Shown piece after piece: positions 779 through 28,137 of a stretch of DNA of 64,000 nt (position 1 is the stretch's first letter; each line of letters begins with the position of its first letter). Location: contig JAUWYR010000001.1 in NCBI GenBank assembly GCA_030615745.1, positions 1 through 64,000 of the forward strand. The letters run 5' to 3'. The position numbers and the translations under genes were made by a program. The notes beneath the pieces were generated by a model that was given only the letters and a program-made list of their open reading frames with translations, made no database searches and was not told where the DNA came from. This DNA comes from Candidatus Zixiibacteriota bacterium (GTDB taxonomy: Bacteria > Zixibacteria > MSB-5A5 > SM23-73-2).

Positions 779-3700
779 TTAAACTTTTCCTTCAACGATT
801 TTGATCTCGTCCTCAGTTAAGCCATAAAGCAGATACACTATTTGGTCAATTAAATTATCTGTAGCACCTATTTTGGTCTTTAGAGGTCTAAGCTTCTTTA
901 AACTTGAATTGAATTCGTTCTCGATGTTCTCCCGGAGGGTGCGACCAATTTTTATTCTGTTCCTTCTTAATACACCCAAAATAGTTTCTAAATTATGGTC
1001 GTGATAATCTTTTACTTTAGTTTTTAATTTTAGCCTTTCAATATCGGTTTTAATTTCCCCTGCAAGCCATTTCAAAAACCCTTTGACCTCTTTTTGTTTT
1101 TCTTTGTTCATTTTAATCATCTGCTCAGCTAAGAAGGCTAAAAAATCATGGACCACATCGGATTTTTCAGGAGTACTGATAAGGTATTGATAGATCATTT
1201 TGCCGATTTTAGAATTTCGAAATTCTGAAGCAGATGAAAAAGTTGAAAATTGCACCAACTTTATAACCTTTGCGAATATAATTTCTAGCTTATGCAATAG
1301 CTTGGCACGCTGGGTAGGGGATGTAGTGAATGAAATTCGACGAATTGGTAATTTGCCAATATAATAATCATCAAAATCCATAGTCCTTATTGCTTTTCCA
1401 AATATAAATCTATAAGCATACCAGGAGGAAAAGAAGGAGTTCATTAACGAAGTGATGAAAGCTAAGGAATAGTGTTTATCAGTAACTACAGTATTTTCTA
1501 TTGTGTCTAATGTCAACACACCTTTATTATCAAGAGTTGACATGAGGATGATATGATCAACGGGGTATAAAACATGAGCAACTATTCTTTGACTAAGAAT
1601 CTTTGGTTGTGATAACAATTCCACCTTCCCTCTGACTTTTTCTAGGACACTTTTTAGAATTGTTTCATCACTTTCAAATAGCATGTATCTTGCTATATGA
1701 TCTCCACGAAATATTTGAATTCTACTAGCTCCTTTATTAACGTATTTCTGAAAAGGTAACCCCCTTGCACTTACGCTTATATTTCTCATGAAAAATTTCC
1801 AAGATAAGACCTTATTAAATATTTGAAGTTCCTTCTTACTTATACCGAGTAATAAAGAATCGGTGAGTAAGCAAATATCTTTTGATATTTCACAAGGCGT
1901 ATCTACTCCAGATTTTTGAAGAATAACTGAGTTGTAATTGTTTGCTTTTAAGTAATTTTCAGAAATTACGATTACTGCTTGCTCCAATAACACTTCTTCA
2001 AATGCTTTACTTGCATCAGCGGCAATGACTAAATCCTTGAGGATTAGATCTCTGCCAGGGGCCCACTTTTGGCTGAATGCAAGAGACTTAGGTATTATAA
2101 AACTGAAAAATCCACTTTCTCGCTTTTTTGCCAAGCTCCTTTCAATAAAAACCATAGCACTATTCTTGTTGTGCTTGCTATGTTCATATTCATATTCTAT
2201 ATATTTTCTCTCGAAATTATCAAACGTTGCTCCATACGGCGGATTCCCTATCACCGCATCGAATCCAGGATTGTCTTTCTGCCTGCCATACTCATCAAAG
2301 AAAATTTCTGGAAATTCAAGCTCCCAGTGGAAGAATCTTTTTTCATTTGCAGTTTTTCCAGCCTTGTTAAAAATATCTTTATGTGCTTTCTCACTGAGCT
2401 TTCTCTTTGTTTCATCCCTTATTCCTTCAACCGTTGCCCGATAAACACTATCATACATAAGATTGCCAAAATACGACGAAGTCCACAGGTCAGCGATTTT
2501 CTTATACTTTTCTCTCCCTTTTTCCAAAGTAGCTAATAAACTATATTTCTCATCAATTGCCTTCTTAGTAATCGATTCTTTTAGTTCTATTTCTTTCTCT
2601 AATTTCAGAAAATGCCATACATCTTGCTTAAACCACTCCTCTTGAATGAAGGAAAGCTGATCCTCAGATGGTTCTTTTTTCTTTTTAGATTTTTTAACTG
2701 GAAGGTAGCCTAAATCTTTTAATTTAGCACCTATCAAACTATTTCCACATCTCAAATGGTGATCCAGAAAAGAAAGAGGTTTGCCTTTTGCTACGGTAGC
2801 TAACCATAAAGATAGTTTTGCTAATTCCACAGCTAAAGGATTTAAATCCACCCCATAAATACACCTTTCAACTATTTGCCTTTTCCAGAAGTTTAACTCA
2901 TTTTCATCATCCATTCCCTCTTGTGTTTTAACTTCAGGATGGGTCGCTATTGCTTCAGCTAAAAATTCAGTAGCGCGAACTAAAAAATGACCCGAACCCA
3001 TAGCAGGGTCTAATACATTTAGTTCTAAAATTTCTTCCGGGGATTTTCCATTGCTTAAAGGACCCAAGGTGTTTTCCACAATATATTTTACAATATAATC
3101 AGGAGTGTAATAACTTCCTGTAGCCTTTCTTTCACTTTTGTCTGTGGCTAAGTAGATCTCACCAGGCTTTAATTCCTTCAAGATTTTTTTATTTTTTGTT
3201 TGGTCTGCCGAAACAACTTTTTCTTTTCTCTTTTCTTTGATTACATATTGTATCTTTTTAGCTTCTATTAATCTGTGTTCTAAAAGACCTTCATAGATTG
3301 AACCGAGATGTCTAATTTCAAGATCACGAAAACTGACGAACTCTAACCTCTCCTCTTTTTCTCTTTTAGTTGGAGTTCTGGACAGTAAATCGATGACTTT
3401 TGAAAGATATGAGTCCCCTATATTATATTTTTCTAAAAATAAATTTTTTTCTGGTTTGAATAATCCCCCGTTATATTCTGGAACATTTAAGTTCTTATCT
3501 CCCTTGTTAATTAATTGAAAGAGATTTTTTAATCTGGACCAGTAAATTACGCTGCTGGATAATAGAGTTTCGTCACGAGTTAGCTTCTTAGCTATCTCTT
3601 TTTTAAGATCATCTAGACTATAAGTCATTCGATAGCTTGTGTTCTCCTCTATGGGCAGGAGGCTGCGGCTTTCTGCATAGAGAATGAAAAGGAGACGATA

Positions 3701-4576
3701 AAGCAAAATTAGGCAATTTTCTCTTATTTTCTCCAAGCTGGCTGTAGTCAATTTGTTATCAGGATAGTTCAAAAAGCCATTAGCTGCTTCCTCTAAGGCA
3801 TCATACACTCTACTTTTTAGCTCATCTCCTATTTGGGTAGCGTAATCGAGAGATGATTTATAAACTTTATCTAAAAAGCATTCCCCTTGCGCATCTGGTA
3901 GAAATGCTTTTAACCTGAAAAAGTGATAGAAATATTTGAAACATTCCAAGTCATTTTGTTGAATAAGGATAGGCAAGTCGACTTGATAAAAGCTGTTGAG
4001 TTTGAAACTTGTTTCCCGATTATATATCCTCCATAAACGTCCATTAGTTAAAATTCCCCATTTTAGGTTGGTTGCTCTTAGATAAAAATCGATTTGATAA
4101 TTAGGATTATGATTGGTGAAGGCATCTTTTGACTTTGTATCTTTTCTGTCTAAAGGTCTATCCCAGTATTTGGCATCACCAACAGCAATTGCTTTTTTAA
4201 AATACTCTCTATATTTTTCTTGGATTAAGTTTTTGTCTGCTTCTTTTTTGGTTTTCTTATCCGAGAAGAATGCATAGTCTGGTCTTTTTTTGCCCTCAAT
4301 TGATAGAGTTCTTGGTTGTAATTGAAAATAAGGATTTATAATTTTCAAAACGGGCATGATAAAATTTTCCTCATTTCTCCTCTCATCTTCAAGAAGTTTT
4401 AATTGACCAGCGACTTTAGCATAAGTTTCAGTGATTTTCTGGAATGCCTCTTTCAAACCTTCTTCATCTTTCCAATTGTCAGTTTTTCTTAATACTTCCG
4501 CCAGATAATGATCAGAAAACAGATAATGATTTTGATGATTCTGCTTTATTAAAGGTAGTTGATAGTTTGAGCTCAT
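779..4576 (-). CDS. Solitary type IIG restriction enzyme / N6-adenine DNA methyltransferase (Eco57I-like)
   Basis: A single chain that should both methylate adenine and cleave DNA. Numbering from the upstream GTG at 4597, an N-terminal nuclease signature is visible as RPDY near residue 105 and GDAK near 140 (PD...D-x-K type). The SAM-binding motif I DPAMGSGHF is near residue 529 and the catalytic motif IV NPPY near 784. The C-terminal ~400 residues resemble a target-recognition domain. At about 1265 residues it has the usual length of this class. A GTG at 4597 opens the same frame, but it lies inside a dispersed palindromic repeat; the ATG at 4576 with AAGGGA just upstream is the better start. 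There is no specificity or restriction subunit next to it, so it is probably self-sufficient. It could be a BREX PglX-like methylase, but no other BREX gene is present. Confidence 0.85.
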   Translation of the reverse strand: MSSNYQLPLIKQNHQNHYLFSDHYLAEVLRKTDNWKDEEGLKEAFQKITETYAKVAGQLKLLEDERRNEENFIMPVLKIINPYFQLQPRTLSIEGKKRPDYAFFSDKKTKKEADKNLIQEKYREYFKKAIAVGDAKYWDRPLDRKDTKSKDAFTNHNPNYQIDFYLRATNLKWGILTNGRLWRIYNRETSFKLNSFYQVDLPILIQQNDLECFKYFYHFFRLKAFLPDAQGECFLDKVYKSSLDYATQIGDELKSRVYDALEEAANGFLNYPDNKLTTASLEKIRENCLILLYRLLFILYAESRSLLPIEENTSYRMTYSLDDLKKEIAKKLTRDETLLSSSVIYWSRLKNLFQLINKGDKNLNVPEYNGGLFKPEKNLFLEKYNIGDSYLSKVIDLLSRTPTKREKEERLEFVSFRDLEIRHLGSIYEGLLEHRLIEAKKIQYVIKEKRKEKVVSADQTKNKKILKELKPGEIYLATDKSERKATGSYYTPDYIVKYIVENTLGPLSNGKSPEEILELNVLDPAMGSGHFLVRATEFLAEAIATHPEVKTQEGMDDENELNFWKRQIVERCIYGVDLNPLAVELAKLSLWLATVAKGKPLSFLDHHLRCGNSLIGAKLKDLGYLPVKKSKKKKEPSEDQLSFIQEEWFKQDVWHFLKLEKEIELKESITKKAIDEKYSLLATLEKGREKYKKIADLWTSSYFGNLMYDSVYRATVEGIRDETKRKLSEKAHKDIFNKAGKTANEKRFFHWELEFPEIFFDEYGRQKDNPGFDAVIGNPPYGATFDNFERKYIEYEYEHSKHNKNSAMVFIERSLAKKRESGFFSFIIPKSLAFSQKWAPGRDLILKDLVIAADASKAFEEVLLEQAVIVISENYLKANNYNSVILQKSGVDTPCEISKDICLLTDSLLLGISKKELQIFNKVLSWKFFMRNISVSARGLPFQKYVNKGASRIQIFRGDHIARYMLFESDETILKSVLEKVRGKVELLSQPKILSQRIVAHVLYPVDHIILMSTLDNKGVLTLDTIENTVVTDKHYSLAFITSLMNSFFSSWYAYRFIFGKAIRTMDFDDYYIGKLPIRRISFTTSPTQRAKLLHKLEIIFAKVIKLVQFSTFSSASEFRNSKIGKMIYQYLISTPEKSDVVHDFLAFLAEQMIKMNKEKQKEVKGFLKWLAGEIKTDIERLKLKTKVKDYHDHNLETILGVLRRNRIKIGRTLRENIENEFNSSLKKLRPLKTKIGATDNLIDQIVYLLYGLTEDEIKIVEGKV

Positions 4577-17689: not shown

Positions 17690-18811
17690 ATGAAAATTAC
17701 CTTGAGTGTAATCAAGGCAGACATTGGTAGTATTGGAGGTCATATCCAGCCGAGCAAGAGATTGAAAGAAACTGTTGGAGACTATATCAAATCCGAAGGG
17801 CTGAACAAAAATCTGATCAAAGATTTTTACATAAGCTCGACCGGGGATGATATTGCTATTCTCATGTCCCATCAAAAGGGAAAACTCGATTCCGATATTC
17901 ACAAGTTAGCCTGGGATGCTTTTGTTAAGGGAACAGAGGTGGCAAAAAAGCAGGGACTTTATGGTGCTGGGCAGGATCTTTTAAAGGATGCTTTCTCAGG
18001 GAATGTCAAGGGTATGGGACCTGCTGTGGCTGAGCTCGAGTTTGAGGAAAGACCGAATGAATCCTTTGTCTTTTTTGCTGCTGATAAAACTGACCCAGGC
18101 GCCTACAATCTCCCATTATATTTGGCATTTGTAGACCCTATGTATAATGCAGGACTTATGCTTTCTCCTAAAATGGATGAGGGATTCAAATTCGTCATAA
18201 TGGATGTTTCCTACACCGAGGCTGACAGGGTAATAGAGCTTTCCTCTCCTCAGGACCTTTACGATATCGCAGCCCTTTTGCGGGATAACCAGAGATTCGT
18301 GGTTGAATCAATTCATTCCAACAATACAAAAGAACAGGCAGCAGCAATGAGCACTACAAGATTGCACAATATCGCAGGAAAATACACGGGGAAGGATGAC
18401 CCGGTTGCTCTGGTCAGGGTACAGGGTGAATTTCCAGCTACAGGTGAGGTTCTTTCTCCTTACAACATCGGACATTTTGTGGCTGGATTTATGAGAGGTA
18501 GCCATAACGGACCTCTGATGCCGTCGAAAGCTAATACCACTATCTCCTTTTTCGATGGACCCCCGGTTGTAACTGCTCAGGCATTTTCAATGAGAGAAGG
18601 GAAATTCACCGAGCCAGCGGATTGCTTTGACCATCCTTTCTGGGATTATGTAAGAGACCAAGTCTCTCAGAAGGCTCTGGATATAAGGCGCCAGGGATTT
18701 TCCGGATGCGCCATGCTTCCTTACTCAGAGCTGGAGTATGGTGGTATCGTGGAGAAGATGAAAAAGCTGGATGGGAAGTTTAAAATTAAAGGTGAAAAAG
18801 TAAGAGTTTAA
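17690..18811 (+). CDS. fbp: Bifunctional fructose 1,6-bisphosphate aldolase/phosphatase (archaeal type V)
   Basis: 373 residues behind AAAGGAGG. N-terminal KITLSVIKADIGSIGGHIQPS includes the Asp/His metal ligands of this family; further hallmarks are STGDDIAILMSHQKG, KGMGPAVAELEFEERPNE, and LYLAFVDPMYNAGLMLSP. These enzymes first condense triose phosphates and then dephosphorylate FBP in the same site, committing carbon to gluconeogenesis. They are typical of archaea and deep-branching or thermophilic bacteria and replace classical FBPase. It is a single-gene unit closed by a terminator. Confidence 0.95.
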   Translation: MKITLSVIKADIGSIGGHIQPSKRLKETVGDYIKSEGLNKNLIKDFYISSTGDDIAILMSHQKGKLDSDIHKLAWDAFVKGTEVAKKQGLYGAGQDLLKDAFSGNVKGMGPAVAELEFEERPNESFVFFAADKTDPGAYNLPLYLAFVDPMYNAGLMLSPKMDEGFKFVIMDVSYTEADRVIELSSPQDLYDIAALLRDNQRFVVESIHSNNTKEQAAAMSTTRLHNIAGKYTGKDDPVALVRVQGEFPATGEVLSPYNIGHFVAGFMRGSHNGPLMPSKANTTISFFDGPPVVTAQAFSMREGKFTEPADCFDHPFWDYVRDQVSQKALDIRRQGFSGCAMLPYSELEYGGIVEKMKKLDGKFKIKGEKVRV

Positions 18812-24751: not shown

Positions 24752-24826
24752 CGGGGCGTGGCGCAGTCTGGTTAGCGCACTCGCTTGGGGTGCGAGTGGT
24801 CGGCCGTTCGAATCGGCTCGCCCCGA
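24752..24826 (+). tRNA. tRNA-Pro, anticodon GGG
   Basis: Cloverleaf: acceptor CGGGGCG/CGCCCCG, D-stem GCGC/GCGC, anticodon stem CTCGC/GCGAG with loop TTGGGGT (anticodon GGG), and T-stem GGCCG/CGGCT with loop TTCGAAT. No CCA encoded. An integrase remnant begins within a dozen bases of its 3' end. Confidence 0.93.
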
Positions 24827-24837
24827 CTAAAATTTGA

Positions 24838-24975
24838 ATCTAATTTTGTTAGAAAGCCTTAGGACATAAGAGTTGGAAAACAACTGAGATTTATACTCAT
24901 GTAAGCACAAAAAGTATAAGTAAAATTCAAAGTCCTTTGGACAGTTTAGGCTTAAGACAAAGGGGTAATAAATGA
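24838..24975 (+). pseudogene. C-terminal remnant of an integron-type tyrosine recombinase (IntI/Xer)
   Basis: The frame ending at TGA 24975 reads LGHKSWKTTEIYTHVSTKS, followed by ISKIQSPLDSLGLRQRGNK. This is the box II end of tyrosine recombinases: LGH-x-S, TTxIYTHV with the nucleophilic Tyr, and the SPLD-x-L tail typical of integron integrases (IntI1 ends with IYTHV...RSPLDAL). Farther upstream the frame is broken by a TAG and a shift, and the tRNA-Pro gene occupies the place of the rest, so only the last ~35 codons survive. It has the same orientation as the cassettes that follow, as in Treponema denticola-type inverted integrons. Confidence 0.75.
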
Positions 24976-25002
24976 CGAAATTTATTAAAAGGAAGGGGTT
25001 CT

Positions 25003-25058
25003 GGCTATTCATCCAGAGGTGGAATAAACGAACTTGTTCGGTTATGAACAAGTTAGCC
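25003..25058 (+). other. Candidate attI-like recombination site
   Basis: Lies between the integrase remnant and the first cassette gene. It has a GAACTTGTTC/GAACAAGTT inverted repeat ending in GTTAGCC (25052-25058), which resembles the GTTRRRY core. Its cassette-side bases TTAGCC nearly match the complement of the R'' box (GCCTAAC) of the first attC, as expected at the start of a cassette. It lacks the central motif shared by the two attC sites, hence attI rather than attC. A second core-like GTTAAGT is at 25085. Confidence 0.5.
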
Positions 25059-25097
25059 GAAATAGCCACACAGTAAAAGCAAAGGTTAAGTGAGATT

Positions 25098-25874
25098 ATG
25101 GATCAGAGAATTATACAAAATTTGGAAAAGTTGGTTGAGGAAGGCAAGAAGCTTGCGCCTCAAGGCGGCAGGGCGGCTGAAGGATATAACGATAAATTAC
25201 AATCTGAATATGTTTCATGGAGAATGCGAAGTTTAAGTGCAATAGAATCCCTTGGAAAACTTGCTGCAAGTCTCAAGAAAGAAATAGAAAGCGATAAAAG
25301 TGGACCTTATTTTTACCAGTCATCAGCACAAAGAGTGTTAGGTTGTATCCAAGCTGCTTTAGAAATTGCTAAAGAAGCAAAGGCTGAGACACTAAAGGAG
25401 ACCGCAAGGACTAAAGAAGGGAAAATACTTTCCAGCAAAGTCTTTATCGTACACGGACATGATGAAGCAGCGCGAGAGGCCACAGCCCGTTTTGTTGAAA
25501 AGCTCGGTCTTGTAGCTGTCATTCTTCATGAGCAGCCAAGTAAGGGGCGAACAATCATTGAAAAATTTGAAGATTATGCCGACGTTAGTTTTGCAATTGT
25601 TTTGCTTACTCCCGATGATATCGGAGCACCGTCTGAAAATCCCAAAAATCTCTTGCCCAGAGCTCGACAAAATGTAATTTTTGAACTTGGATATTTCATT
25701 GGTGCTCTTGGACGGGATCGAGTTGTTGCGTTGTACAAGAAGGATGTCGAAATTCCATCTGATTATCAAGGTGTTATGTTTATTCCGTTCGATGAATCCG
25801 GCTCCTGGAGATTTGCGCTAGCGAAAGAGTTAAAGACGGCCGGAATGAACATAGATTTAAATAAAGCAATATGA
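25098..25874 (+). CDS. Integron cassette gene 1: TIR-like (CAP12/PycTIR-type) nucleotide-binding effector
   Basis: 258 residues. The first ~110 residues are helical, with no recognised domain. Residues ~114-245 match the TIR-like predicted nucleotide-binding family (PF10137-type): KVFIVHGHDEAAREATARF, HEQPSKGRTIIEKFED with the likely catalytic Glu, VLLTPDDIG, and RQNVIFELGYFIGALGRDR. Known members cut NAD+ as effectors in CBASS and Pycsar antiphage systems. No cyclase lies nearby, so it may use a built-in sensor. It begins 40 bases after the putative attI core and ends 20 bases before attC1, the compact spacing of a gene cassette. Confidence 0.85.
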   Translation: MDQRIIQNLEKLVEEGKKLAPQGGRAAEGYNDKLQSEYVSWRMRSLSAIESLGKLAASLKKEIESDKSGPYFYQSSAQRVLGCIQAALEIAKEAKAETLKETARTKEGKILSSKVFIVHGHDEAAREATARFVEKLGLVAVILHEQPSKGRTIIEKFEDYADVSFAIVLLTPDDIGAPSENPKNLLPRARQNVIFELGYFIGALGRDRVVALYKKDVEIPSDYQGVMFIPFDESGSWRFALAKELKTAGMNIDLNKAI

Positions 25875-25893
25875 ATATAATTGTGGCTACTTC

Positions 25894-25979
25894 GCCTAAC
25901 ACGGTGTATGCGGTTCGCTACGCTCACCCAAATTGCTCCGCTCCGCTCCGCAACTTCGCATACACCGATTCCGTTGTGC
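25894..25979 (+). other. attC-like site of cassette 1
   Basis: Outer boxes GCCTAAC (fits RYYYAAC) and GTTGTGC (GTTRRRY with one mismatch). Inner arms CGGTGTATGCG and CGCATACACCG pair perfectly over 11 bases, with unpaired spacers between boxes. The middle carries CCCAAATTGC and GCAACTTC, shared with attC2. This is the layout of integron recombination sites. Confidence 0.75.
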
Positions 25980-26004
25980 GTAATGCCCAAATAAGGAGAA
26001 ATGC

Positions 26005-26997
26005 TTGATATTAAAAAAGAAAAATTTTTTGAGATGTGTTCTTTCTCCATTTGATTTATTTGGAAAAGATGAAGAAGGCCTTTCGAAAGCATTTGCTTAT
26101 ACAATTGCGAAAGAACCCAAAGCTCTTTATGGTTTCTTGCACTATCTTGGATTATCAGTAAAAAATACAAAAAATAATTTTAAATCTACTTCAATTCAAC
26201 TTGAAAAAAAATATAGGGTTAAACGAACAGATATTGAAATTAAACAAAAGAATAAGTTTCATATAATTATTGAGTGTAAAGTGAGGAAAAATAAAGTCTT
26301 AAAACAAAGAAGGCAATATTTAAATTGTTTTGATGATGTTCCATGTAAAATAATGTGTTTTATAACTCAGGTTAATGACTATCAGGTTCAAAAATATAAG
26401 GATATTAAAGTATGCAATATAGGATGGATAGAAATTATTAATATCTATAATGACAGAAAATATGAAAATTGTCCTATAATCATTGATTTTATAAAATTTA
26501 CAATGAAAGGATATAAAATGAGAGAGCAAAAAGAAATATTGGTTCAAGACTTAAGTAAAGAAAATGAAATGAAGCGTTACCGTGAATATAATGTGTATCG
26601 AAGAAATGTAGTGTTTGGAAACCCTTTATATTTTTCACCTTATTTTACTCAGAAGGCTAATCAGCTAGAAGGTAAAGGAATATCATTTCTATCCAAAATT
26701 TTAGGTATTTTAACTCTTCGACCAGCCGAAATAGTGAACTATGAAGATGACTTAAAAGAATTTGCTGGGGGAAAGAAAAATTTAGTAAAAAAATGGATGA
26801 ATGGAGTTTCAATTGATAAAAATTCGGATAAAACATACACATATTTTTTTCTTGATGATCCTGTAAAATTAAATAAACCATTATTGAAAGATAGAGGCAG
26901 AGAAACTGGACGGGGGAAAAACTGGATAGCAGCGATGATTCCTAAAAATCGATGTGTATCATTTGATGAATTTGTTAAGAGAATTGTGGCTAAATAA
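26005..26997 (+). CDS. Integron cassette gene 2: PD-(D/E)XK-type nuclease, otherwise unknown
   Basis: 330 residues from a TTG start six bases after AAGGAG. A nuclease core is visible: RTDIEIK near residue 75 and HIIIECKVRKNKVLKQRRQY (D...E-x-K followed by QxxxY), the arrangement of PD-(D/E)XK enzymes of the RecB/restriction type. The C-terminal ~180 residues show no known domain. The gene is richer in A/T than cassette 1. Its cassette runs from TTGTGC at 25974 to the attC2 box at 27082, and its attC R'' box GCACAAC is the exact complement of the cassette's first bases. A defence role is likely from context, but not shown. Confidence 0.75.
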   Translation: MILKKKNFLRCVLSPFDLFGKDEEGLSKAFAYTIAKEPKALYGFLHYLGLSVKNTKNNFKSTSIQLEKKYRVKRTDIEIKQKNKFHIIIECKVRKNKVLKQRRQYLNCFDDVPCKIMCFITQVNDYQVQKYKDIKVCNIGWIEIINIYNDRKYENCPIIIDFIKFTMKGYKMREQKEILVQDLSKENEMKRYREYNVYRRNVVFGNPLYFSPYFTQKANQLEGKGISFLSKILGILTLRPAEIVNYEDDLKEFAGGKKNLVKKWMNGVSIDKNSDKTYTYFFLDDPVKLNKPLLKDRGRETGRGKNWIAAMIPKNRCVSFDEFVKRIVAK

Positions 26998-27009
26998 TTC
27001 GGGCACTAC

Positions 27010-27088
27010 GCACAACAGCGGATAAAAGGAAAATCAAAGATTTCCCCAAATTGCCTTTGGCAACTTCTTTTATCCGAAGACGTTATAA
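27010..27088 (+). other. attC-like site of cassette 2
   Basis: Outer boxes GCACAAC and GTTATAA (only AAC/GTT paired), with inner arms CGGATAAAAG and CTTTTATCCG (10 bases perfect). The loop holds GGAAAATC/GATTTCC and TTGCC/GGCAA hairpins and the CCCAAATTGC...GCAACTTC motif also present in attC1. Confidence 0.7.
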
Positions 27089-27177
27089 AAAATGGAAATT
27101 TTTGGAGAGACAATTTTTTGATACCAGTCTAAATTGCTTCGAACAGCGTTCAGTAATTCAGATATAGTTAAAAGTTC

Positions 27178-28052: not shown

Positions 28053-28137
28053 AACAGTTGTAGTCGTAGGTCAGGTGCCCTGCGCACCTGACAAATGAAT
28101 AGTGTCAGGAGCACGGGGCTCCTGACCTACAACTGTT
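28053..28137. repeat. Nested inverted repeat with GTCAGGA modules
   Basis: Outer AACAGTTG/CAACTGTT arms enclose GTAGGTCAGGTGCCCTGCGC-type and GTCAGGAGC...GCTCCTGAC hairpins and the terminal CCTGACCTAC. Related to 9367-9524. Confidence 0.7.

Follow-up and report, generated by a model that had tools for sequence, protein, structure and literature searches.

A probable two-cassette integron relic of an insertion-less, non-IntI tyrosine recombinase in Candidatus Zixiibacteriota

Introduction

The IntI-specific insertion has been presented as a defining mark of the integron integrase (Ghaly, 2022; PMC9668308). In the available portion of one survey, the insertion is described as incompletely conserved in an 'integron-like' subgroup of tyrosine recombinases, yet essential for integron function (Smyshlyaev, 2021; PMC8138268), and few integrons were reported in Bacteroidetes with IntegronFinder 2.0 (PMC9024848). 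Because integron surveys look for the insertion, a class of integrons that lacks it would be missed or seen only as orphan attC clusters. Our searches of open-access papers turned up no account of integrons run by insertion-less recombinases, a scope that leaves priority uncertain.

We consider here a 64,000-nucleotide stretch of DNA (the window) from a member of Candidatus Zixiibacteriota, in which an earlier note had proposed an inverted integron carrying two defence-like cassettes.

Locus architecture and genomic setting

The integrase remnant, attI, two genes and two hairpin sites all lie on the + strand, between tRNA-Pro(ggg) and a glycosyltransferase (GT) gene (27362). In window coordinates the features are as follows.

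24752..24827, +, tRNA-Pro(ggg), left border of the insertion (ARAGORN)
24853..24975, +, C-terminal remnant (40 codons and stop) of an integron-type tyrosine recombinase, predicted to be insertion-less (TIGR02249; identity to L177)
25028..25058, +, attI core, crossover G^TT at 25052/25053, TATGAACAAG^TTAGCC (profile of relatives)
25053..25973, +, cassette 1 (TT...G), attC1 included (start box and R'' paired at 9/10 plus position 12)
25098..25874, +, TIR-domain protein gene, 258 aa (PF10137, PADLOC PDC-S35)
25892..25978, +, attC1 (covariance model R1, 51.4 bits, E 8.8e-8)
25974..27082, +, cassette 2 (TT...G), attC2 included (10-nt exact box match, GTTGTGCGTA / TACGCACAAC)
26005..26997, +, PD-(D/E)XK nuclease-like protein gene, 330 aa, TTG start (PF14281 PDDEXK_4)
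27008..27087, +, attC2 (covariance model R1, 43.1 bits, E 3e-6)
27116..27143, +, diverged copy of the 5' end of the downstream GT gene, right border of the insertion

The gene order gpsA-merR-tRNA-Pro-GT-surE is conserved across the window's order. The gap between tRNA-Pro and GT measures ~48-125 bp in four sister genomes (G001, G003, G007 and G010) and 2.5 kb in the window genome. The four carry the empty site, relative to which the window locus is an insertion. In G002 the same gap spans 2.2 kb and is filled by a methylase-like and a restriction-type gene (L273; G002:C86, 150-2271), both assigned by direct reading rather than profile search; given this pair, the gap looks like a defence hot spot.

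The copy of the GT 5' end that follows attC2 is identical to the gene at 22/28 positions, a value equalled in 0/500 shuffles. Because of this diverged copy, the insert may have arrived through recombination with a relative. A promoter scan of the locus gave fewer matches than in shuffles. Inverted repeats of the GTCAGGAGC...GCTCCTGAC type recur in intergenic DNA of the genome, for example at 28066-28127 of the window and at ~1060-1085 of L003.

attC sites and box complementarity

The earlier note had described two hairpin sites with attC layout and proposed a covariance-model search as a check. Our model, R1, was built from nine compact attC sites of relatives, picked by length and box match, with no window sequence among them. 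It found both sites at the expected places, the next match in the window scoring 10.5 bits. Rfam at gathering score gave no attC match. The central motif CCCAAATTGC...GCAACTTC, which the note had seen in both sites, is indeed present in each (25927 and 27045), and it is conserved in related genomes beside other genes. Of the two outcomes that the note named as refuting its reading, absent attC scores and a motif not conserved in relatives, neither was observed.

The note had also claimed that the start of cassette 2 is the complement of its own R'' box. The match is longer than was claimed: the start GTTGTGCGTAAT (25973) and R'' ACTACGCACAAC (ending 27016) are exactly complementary over 10 nt, followed by an A.C mispair at position 11 and a pair at position 12. 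When the whole 64 kb was scanned on both strands for hairpins between AAC and GTT, each strand gave five, with a box match of at least 8 nt at the cassette 2 pair and nowhere else. In cassette 1, where the note had counted one mismatch, GTTAGCCGAAAT and ACTTCGCCTAAC pair at 9/10 of the first positions, again with A.C at position 11 and a pair at position 12. When relatives and plasmids (85 loci) were scanned in this way, 39 loci yielded 117 pairs in total, compared with ~7 in shuffles.

Both window cassettes share the box pattern of their relatives. In a set of 85 pairs, in which positions 1-9 are paired by selection, 58/85 have an A.C mispair at position 11 and 8/85 are paired there, whereas 65/85 are paired at position 12. 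On the other strand an A.C mispair becomes G.T, so that the bottom strand would be the more likely one to fold. The R'' GCACAAC of attC2 departs from the classical R-box consensus RYYYAAC/GTTRRRY. Classical attC sites also have similar unpaired spacers on the two sides; in relatives the spacers separating box from stem are mostly 1/5, versus 7/7 in two class 1 attC sites. A box match longer than 7 nt was considered as a mark specific to the family and dropped, since a class 1 control array likewise has matches of 10-12 nt.

The attC stem comprises 11 bp in 24 aligned sites, where 95% of cells are paired, compared with 32-46% when the alignment is slid, although pairing is overcounted in this alignment (A4) because it was fitted to the structure of the model. 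Covariation of the stem in the 24 sites is strong, with a score of 0.79 versus 0.21 when shuffled. Two apical hairpins, split by CCCAAAT and ACTTC, have mean folding better than shuffles (z -2.7 and -3.5); attC1 is without the first of them. Two other genomes of the order, G003 and G010, have sites beside unrelated genes that share 88-89% identity with attC2, and the R'' boxes differ. CCCAAATTGC occurs four times in the genome. The copy at C70:66944 had been taken for a coding-sequence match, a reading overturned when the covariance model identified it as attC. Among the viral-contig matches listed, the loose central motif occurs at about chance level.

attI and the integrase remnant

The candidate attI of the earlier note, G^TTAGCC beginning at 25052, ranks first of the 1,934 GTT sites in the window by a profile derived from 30 relatives (11.4 bits, against 6.7 for the runner-up). 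Its core is nearly identical in L177, L185 and L228; that of L177 reads TATGAACAAG^TTGTGTG. It adjoins the integrase gene, and the spacing from the integrase end to the first cassette is 79 nt in the window and 33-161 nt, with a mode of ~105, in relatives.

The remnant itself reads KALGHKSWKTTEIYTHVSTKSISKIQSPLDSLGLRQRGNK and then a stop, and retains His-III and the Tyr nucleophile. The note had called it IntI-like, and TIGR02249 is its best NCBIfam match (positions 285-315/315, E 9e-8). The nearest relatives, however, are without the IntI insertion: identity is 69% to L177, a KSB1 relative (39 aa), versus ~50-55% to IntI-type matches, and the C-terminus is of the THVSTKSISKIQSPLD type, not THVLNRGGxGVRSPxD. 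L177, too, is fragmentary, and its reading frame is disrupted. The 69% identity over 39 aa suggests that the window's own enzyme was insertion-less, the remnant being too short to reach the insertion region near patch III.

An intact recombinase of the remnant's kind was not found elsewhere in the genome, which is 98.6% complete. Because the integrase has been lost but for its last 40 codons, the cassette array would be frozen unless a recombinase acts in trans, and it is probably frozen at present. The note had seen a mobile antiphage array. The two defence-like cassettes bear out one half of that description, but the platform is no longer self-mobile. A second integrase remnant, with a C-terminus like that of classical IntI (YTHVLNKGGHGVRSPVDAL), lies in the same genome at G000:C1 ~18686-18806 (-) (locus L020); that contig gave no attC matches.

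A family of insertion-less recombinases

The closest relatives of the remnant come from KSB1, Nitrospirota, Deltaproteobacteria, Bacteroidota, Bacillota, Micrarchaeota and others, and make up a broad insertion-less group. The relative search used a protein alignment (A2) of natural rows only, and 80 relative loci were examined, one of which (L222) is an IntI and served as control. In the group, catalytic Arg I and His II are 89-95 aa apart, with one row at 87 (L191), versus 131 in IntI. Aligned to IntI4 (PDB 2a3v), the group profile passes over 55 residues (183-237), and on nine relatives the TIGR02249 match is split in two, scoring 200-226 bits, below the cut-off of 265; the IntI control scores 438. 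Catalytic residues are invariant among aligned family members. The top matches of the predicted family fold are XerA (two entries) and IntI4, with Z of 23.2, 20.8 and 20.2.

In a tree of shared columns, which leaves out Gemmatirosa and represents XerA by two tested sequences, the insertion-less group clusters with IntI to the exclusion of XerA, XerC and XerD (99/96). The insertion-less group itself is weakly supported (57/53), and the insertion-less enzyme of G008 falls beside IntI (92/93); its placement with the rest of the insertion-less group is not rejected (p 0.07). From its position in the tree, the G008 enzyme is a possible intermediate. Because of the weak group support and the alternative placement of this enzyme, the order of events is suggested rather than settled.

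The first ~60-70 aa of the family integrases (alignment A7) form an extra N-terminal domain with the motif GxRWxxxxKxWxxP, which is missing from IntI. It matches HARP (PF07443), a domain of a DNA-annealing helicase, weakly in 3/13 members (best E 5e-4), and the solved HARP 4o66 with E 1.4. A fold search with the domain returned nothing convincing, with Z of 4.2 at most. Fragments of related recombinases, with attI-like sequence, also lie directly beside resistance genes on an Acinetobacter tet(X3) plasmid (L176) and a Salmonella mph(G)/mef(C) plasmid (L174), where the cassettes are putative.

Arrays in relatives and attC sites in the order

At 20/41 family loci with at least 2 kb downstream, a box-matched first cassette starts within 180 nt of the integrase stop. 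The same test gave 0 in shuffles, 0/73 upstream and 0/35 at Xer-type loci. By this strict test, roughly half of the family loci for which the sequence is long enough lack an array. The arrays chain, the attC end being the next cassette start, and L208 carries several cassettes. The insertion-less integrases mostly point in the same direction as their own arrays. The earlier note had likened the window to Treponema-type inverted integrons. The shared strand is as it described, but this layout need not point to integrons of that type because it is the usual one in the insertion-less family.

The one complete array of the window's order, in G008 (C101, locus L307), has a divergent layout. Its insertion-less integrase (972-1785, -) is in two pieces and includes a masked stretch; three chained box-matched cassettes (GNAT, LysE and an unknown) run at 1834-3926, away from it.

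In 132 genomes of the phylum, R1 found matches in 8/11 of the window's order versus 3/121 elsewhere, often with defence genes. Elsewhere in the order or class there are attC cassettes with an OLD nuclease (G001, box match 10/10) and GmrSD (G012, 9/9), and further attC sites neighbour an FRG domain (G002), HSDR_N (G005) and a PD-T7-4-like protein (G009), where the cassette starts are less well authenticated. The window's genome holds three single attC sites outside any array: C40:48075-48161 after AIPR/AbiU, C47:12263-12352 after HD-CE and C70:66907-66987 after DUF3795. Their box matches are weaker (8-9/10). In this uncultivated order, single anti-phage-like genes (TIR, PD-(D/E)XK, AbiU/AIPR, OLD, HSDR_N) thus bear attC sites of the same family.

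Cassette genes

The TIR protein matches PF10137 (E 2.8e-39) and, over residues 9-257, the PADLOC candidate PDC-S35 (E 1.2e-78); its best solved relatives are Cap12 proteins. The nuclease-like protein matches PF14281 PDDEXK_4 with E 2.6e-4 and 21.4 bits, against a cut-off of 22.3, and a D...E-C-K motif is visible. It had no match in PADLOC, among PDB structures or among plasmids. The TTG start of its gene sits 4 nt past an out-of-frame ATG (window 26001-26060), and a small 5' frameshift is possible. Both are plausible anti-phage genes.

Interpretation of the locus

We read the locus, with high confidence, as a two-cassette integron relic driven by an insertion-less, non-IntI tyrosine recombinase. 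We call it a two-cassette integron relic because of the box match, the attC sites found by covariance model, the top-ranked attI and the 2.5-kb gap compared with the sister genomes. The remnant, attI, the two attC sites, the box complementarity, the stem covariation, the insertion as judged against sister genomes and the intact relatives with arrays can each be read from the DNA itself. In intact relatives, attI lies ~100 bp downstream of the enzyme gene, and circular one-gene cassettes would be inserted at its G^TT. Because insertion is at G^TT, every cassette would begin with TT plus box and end with an attC, folding as a hairpin, whose R'' complements that box. We infer that the insertion-less enzyme recombines such cassettes with the folded bottom strand as its substrate, and that the cassette genes act in phage defence. 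The window platform, between tRNA-Pro and the glycosyltransferase gene, would have taken up the TIR and nuclease-like cassettes and later lost its integrase except for the last 40 codons, leaving an array that could move only with a recombinase in trans.

We consider it unlikely that the locus is a decayed integron of the ordinary IntI type whose inverted layout would be the one already known. Such an origin would agree with TIGR02249 as the remnant's top NCBIfam match, with the classical IntI remnant kept on another contig of the genome and with the IntI above cut-off that G010 carries on C318. It sits poorly with a remnant whose C-terminus and identity favour the insertion-less relatives, and with an attI core (TATGAACAAG^TTAG) and compact attC sites that match the insertion-less arrays. 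The three single attC sites elsewhere in the genome indicate that cassettes do exist outside arrays, and the window pair might then be a cluster without a platform of its own, placed in a secondary site near an unrelated integrase fragment; the integrase end, attI and first cassette nevertheless follow the order and spacing of intact relatives, and we judge this very unlikely.

The remnant is only 25 bp from the tRNA, and the gap in G002 holds its methylase and restriction-type pair; both would suit a genomic island put at tRNA-Pro by an island-type tyrosine integrase, with the hairpins as terminators or REP-like repeats. No tRNA-end repeat was seen, however, and the hairpins, which lie between AAC and GTT boxes complementary to cassette starts, show covariation and are found again next to unrelated genes. 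The box chain strongly contradicts an island of this kind, which we regard as extremely unlikely.

Beyond the integron relic itself, the insertion-less integrases with the extra N-terminal domain might constitute a large, undescribed integron class that extends across Bacteroidota, Bacillota, Nitrospirota, other bacteria and archaea. IntI integrons would then have originated inside this class or next to it when they acquired the insertion, which would not be needed for cassette recombination as such. We hold the odds on this broader proposal to be about even. If the enzymes work, capture of cassettes at folded sites is possible without the IntI insertion, and the origin of integrons from Xer recombinases becomes testable.

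Comparison with known systems

Archaeal XerA acts at dif on chromosome dimers. It is the best overall match to the family in sequence and fold (4a8e, 5hxy; NCBIfam NF040815) and, like the family, has no insertion; many family members exceed the NF040815 cut-off. Unlike XerA, the family is found next to cassette arrays, and in the tree it joins IntI in a clade that excludes both tested XerA (99/96). With respect to the 'integron-like' subgroup of tyrosine recombinases (Smyshlyaev, 2021; PMC8138268), the difference lies in the arrays, none being reported for insertion-less members in the available portion of that paper.

The window locus resembles a CALIN in having two attC sites within 4 kb and no functional integrase, but it keeps an attI and an integrase end. 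With IntI integrons (class 1, VchIntIA/VCR) the family shares an attI, an R'' complementary to the cassette start, the G^TT crossover, one-gene cassettes and a tyrosine recombinase with the full catalytic set. It differs in an enzyme that lacks the IntI-specific insertion and carries the additional ~60-70 aa N-terminal domain, in a mostly same-strand layout, in short attC spacers of unequal length (mostly 1/5, where two class 1 attC sites have 7/7) and in the conserved A.C mispair at box position 11.
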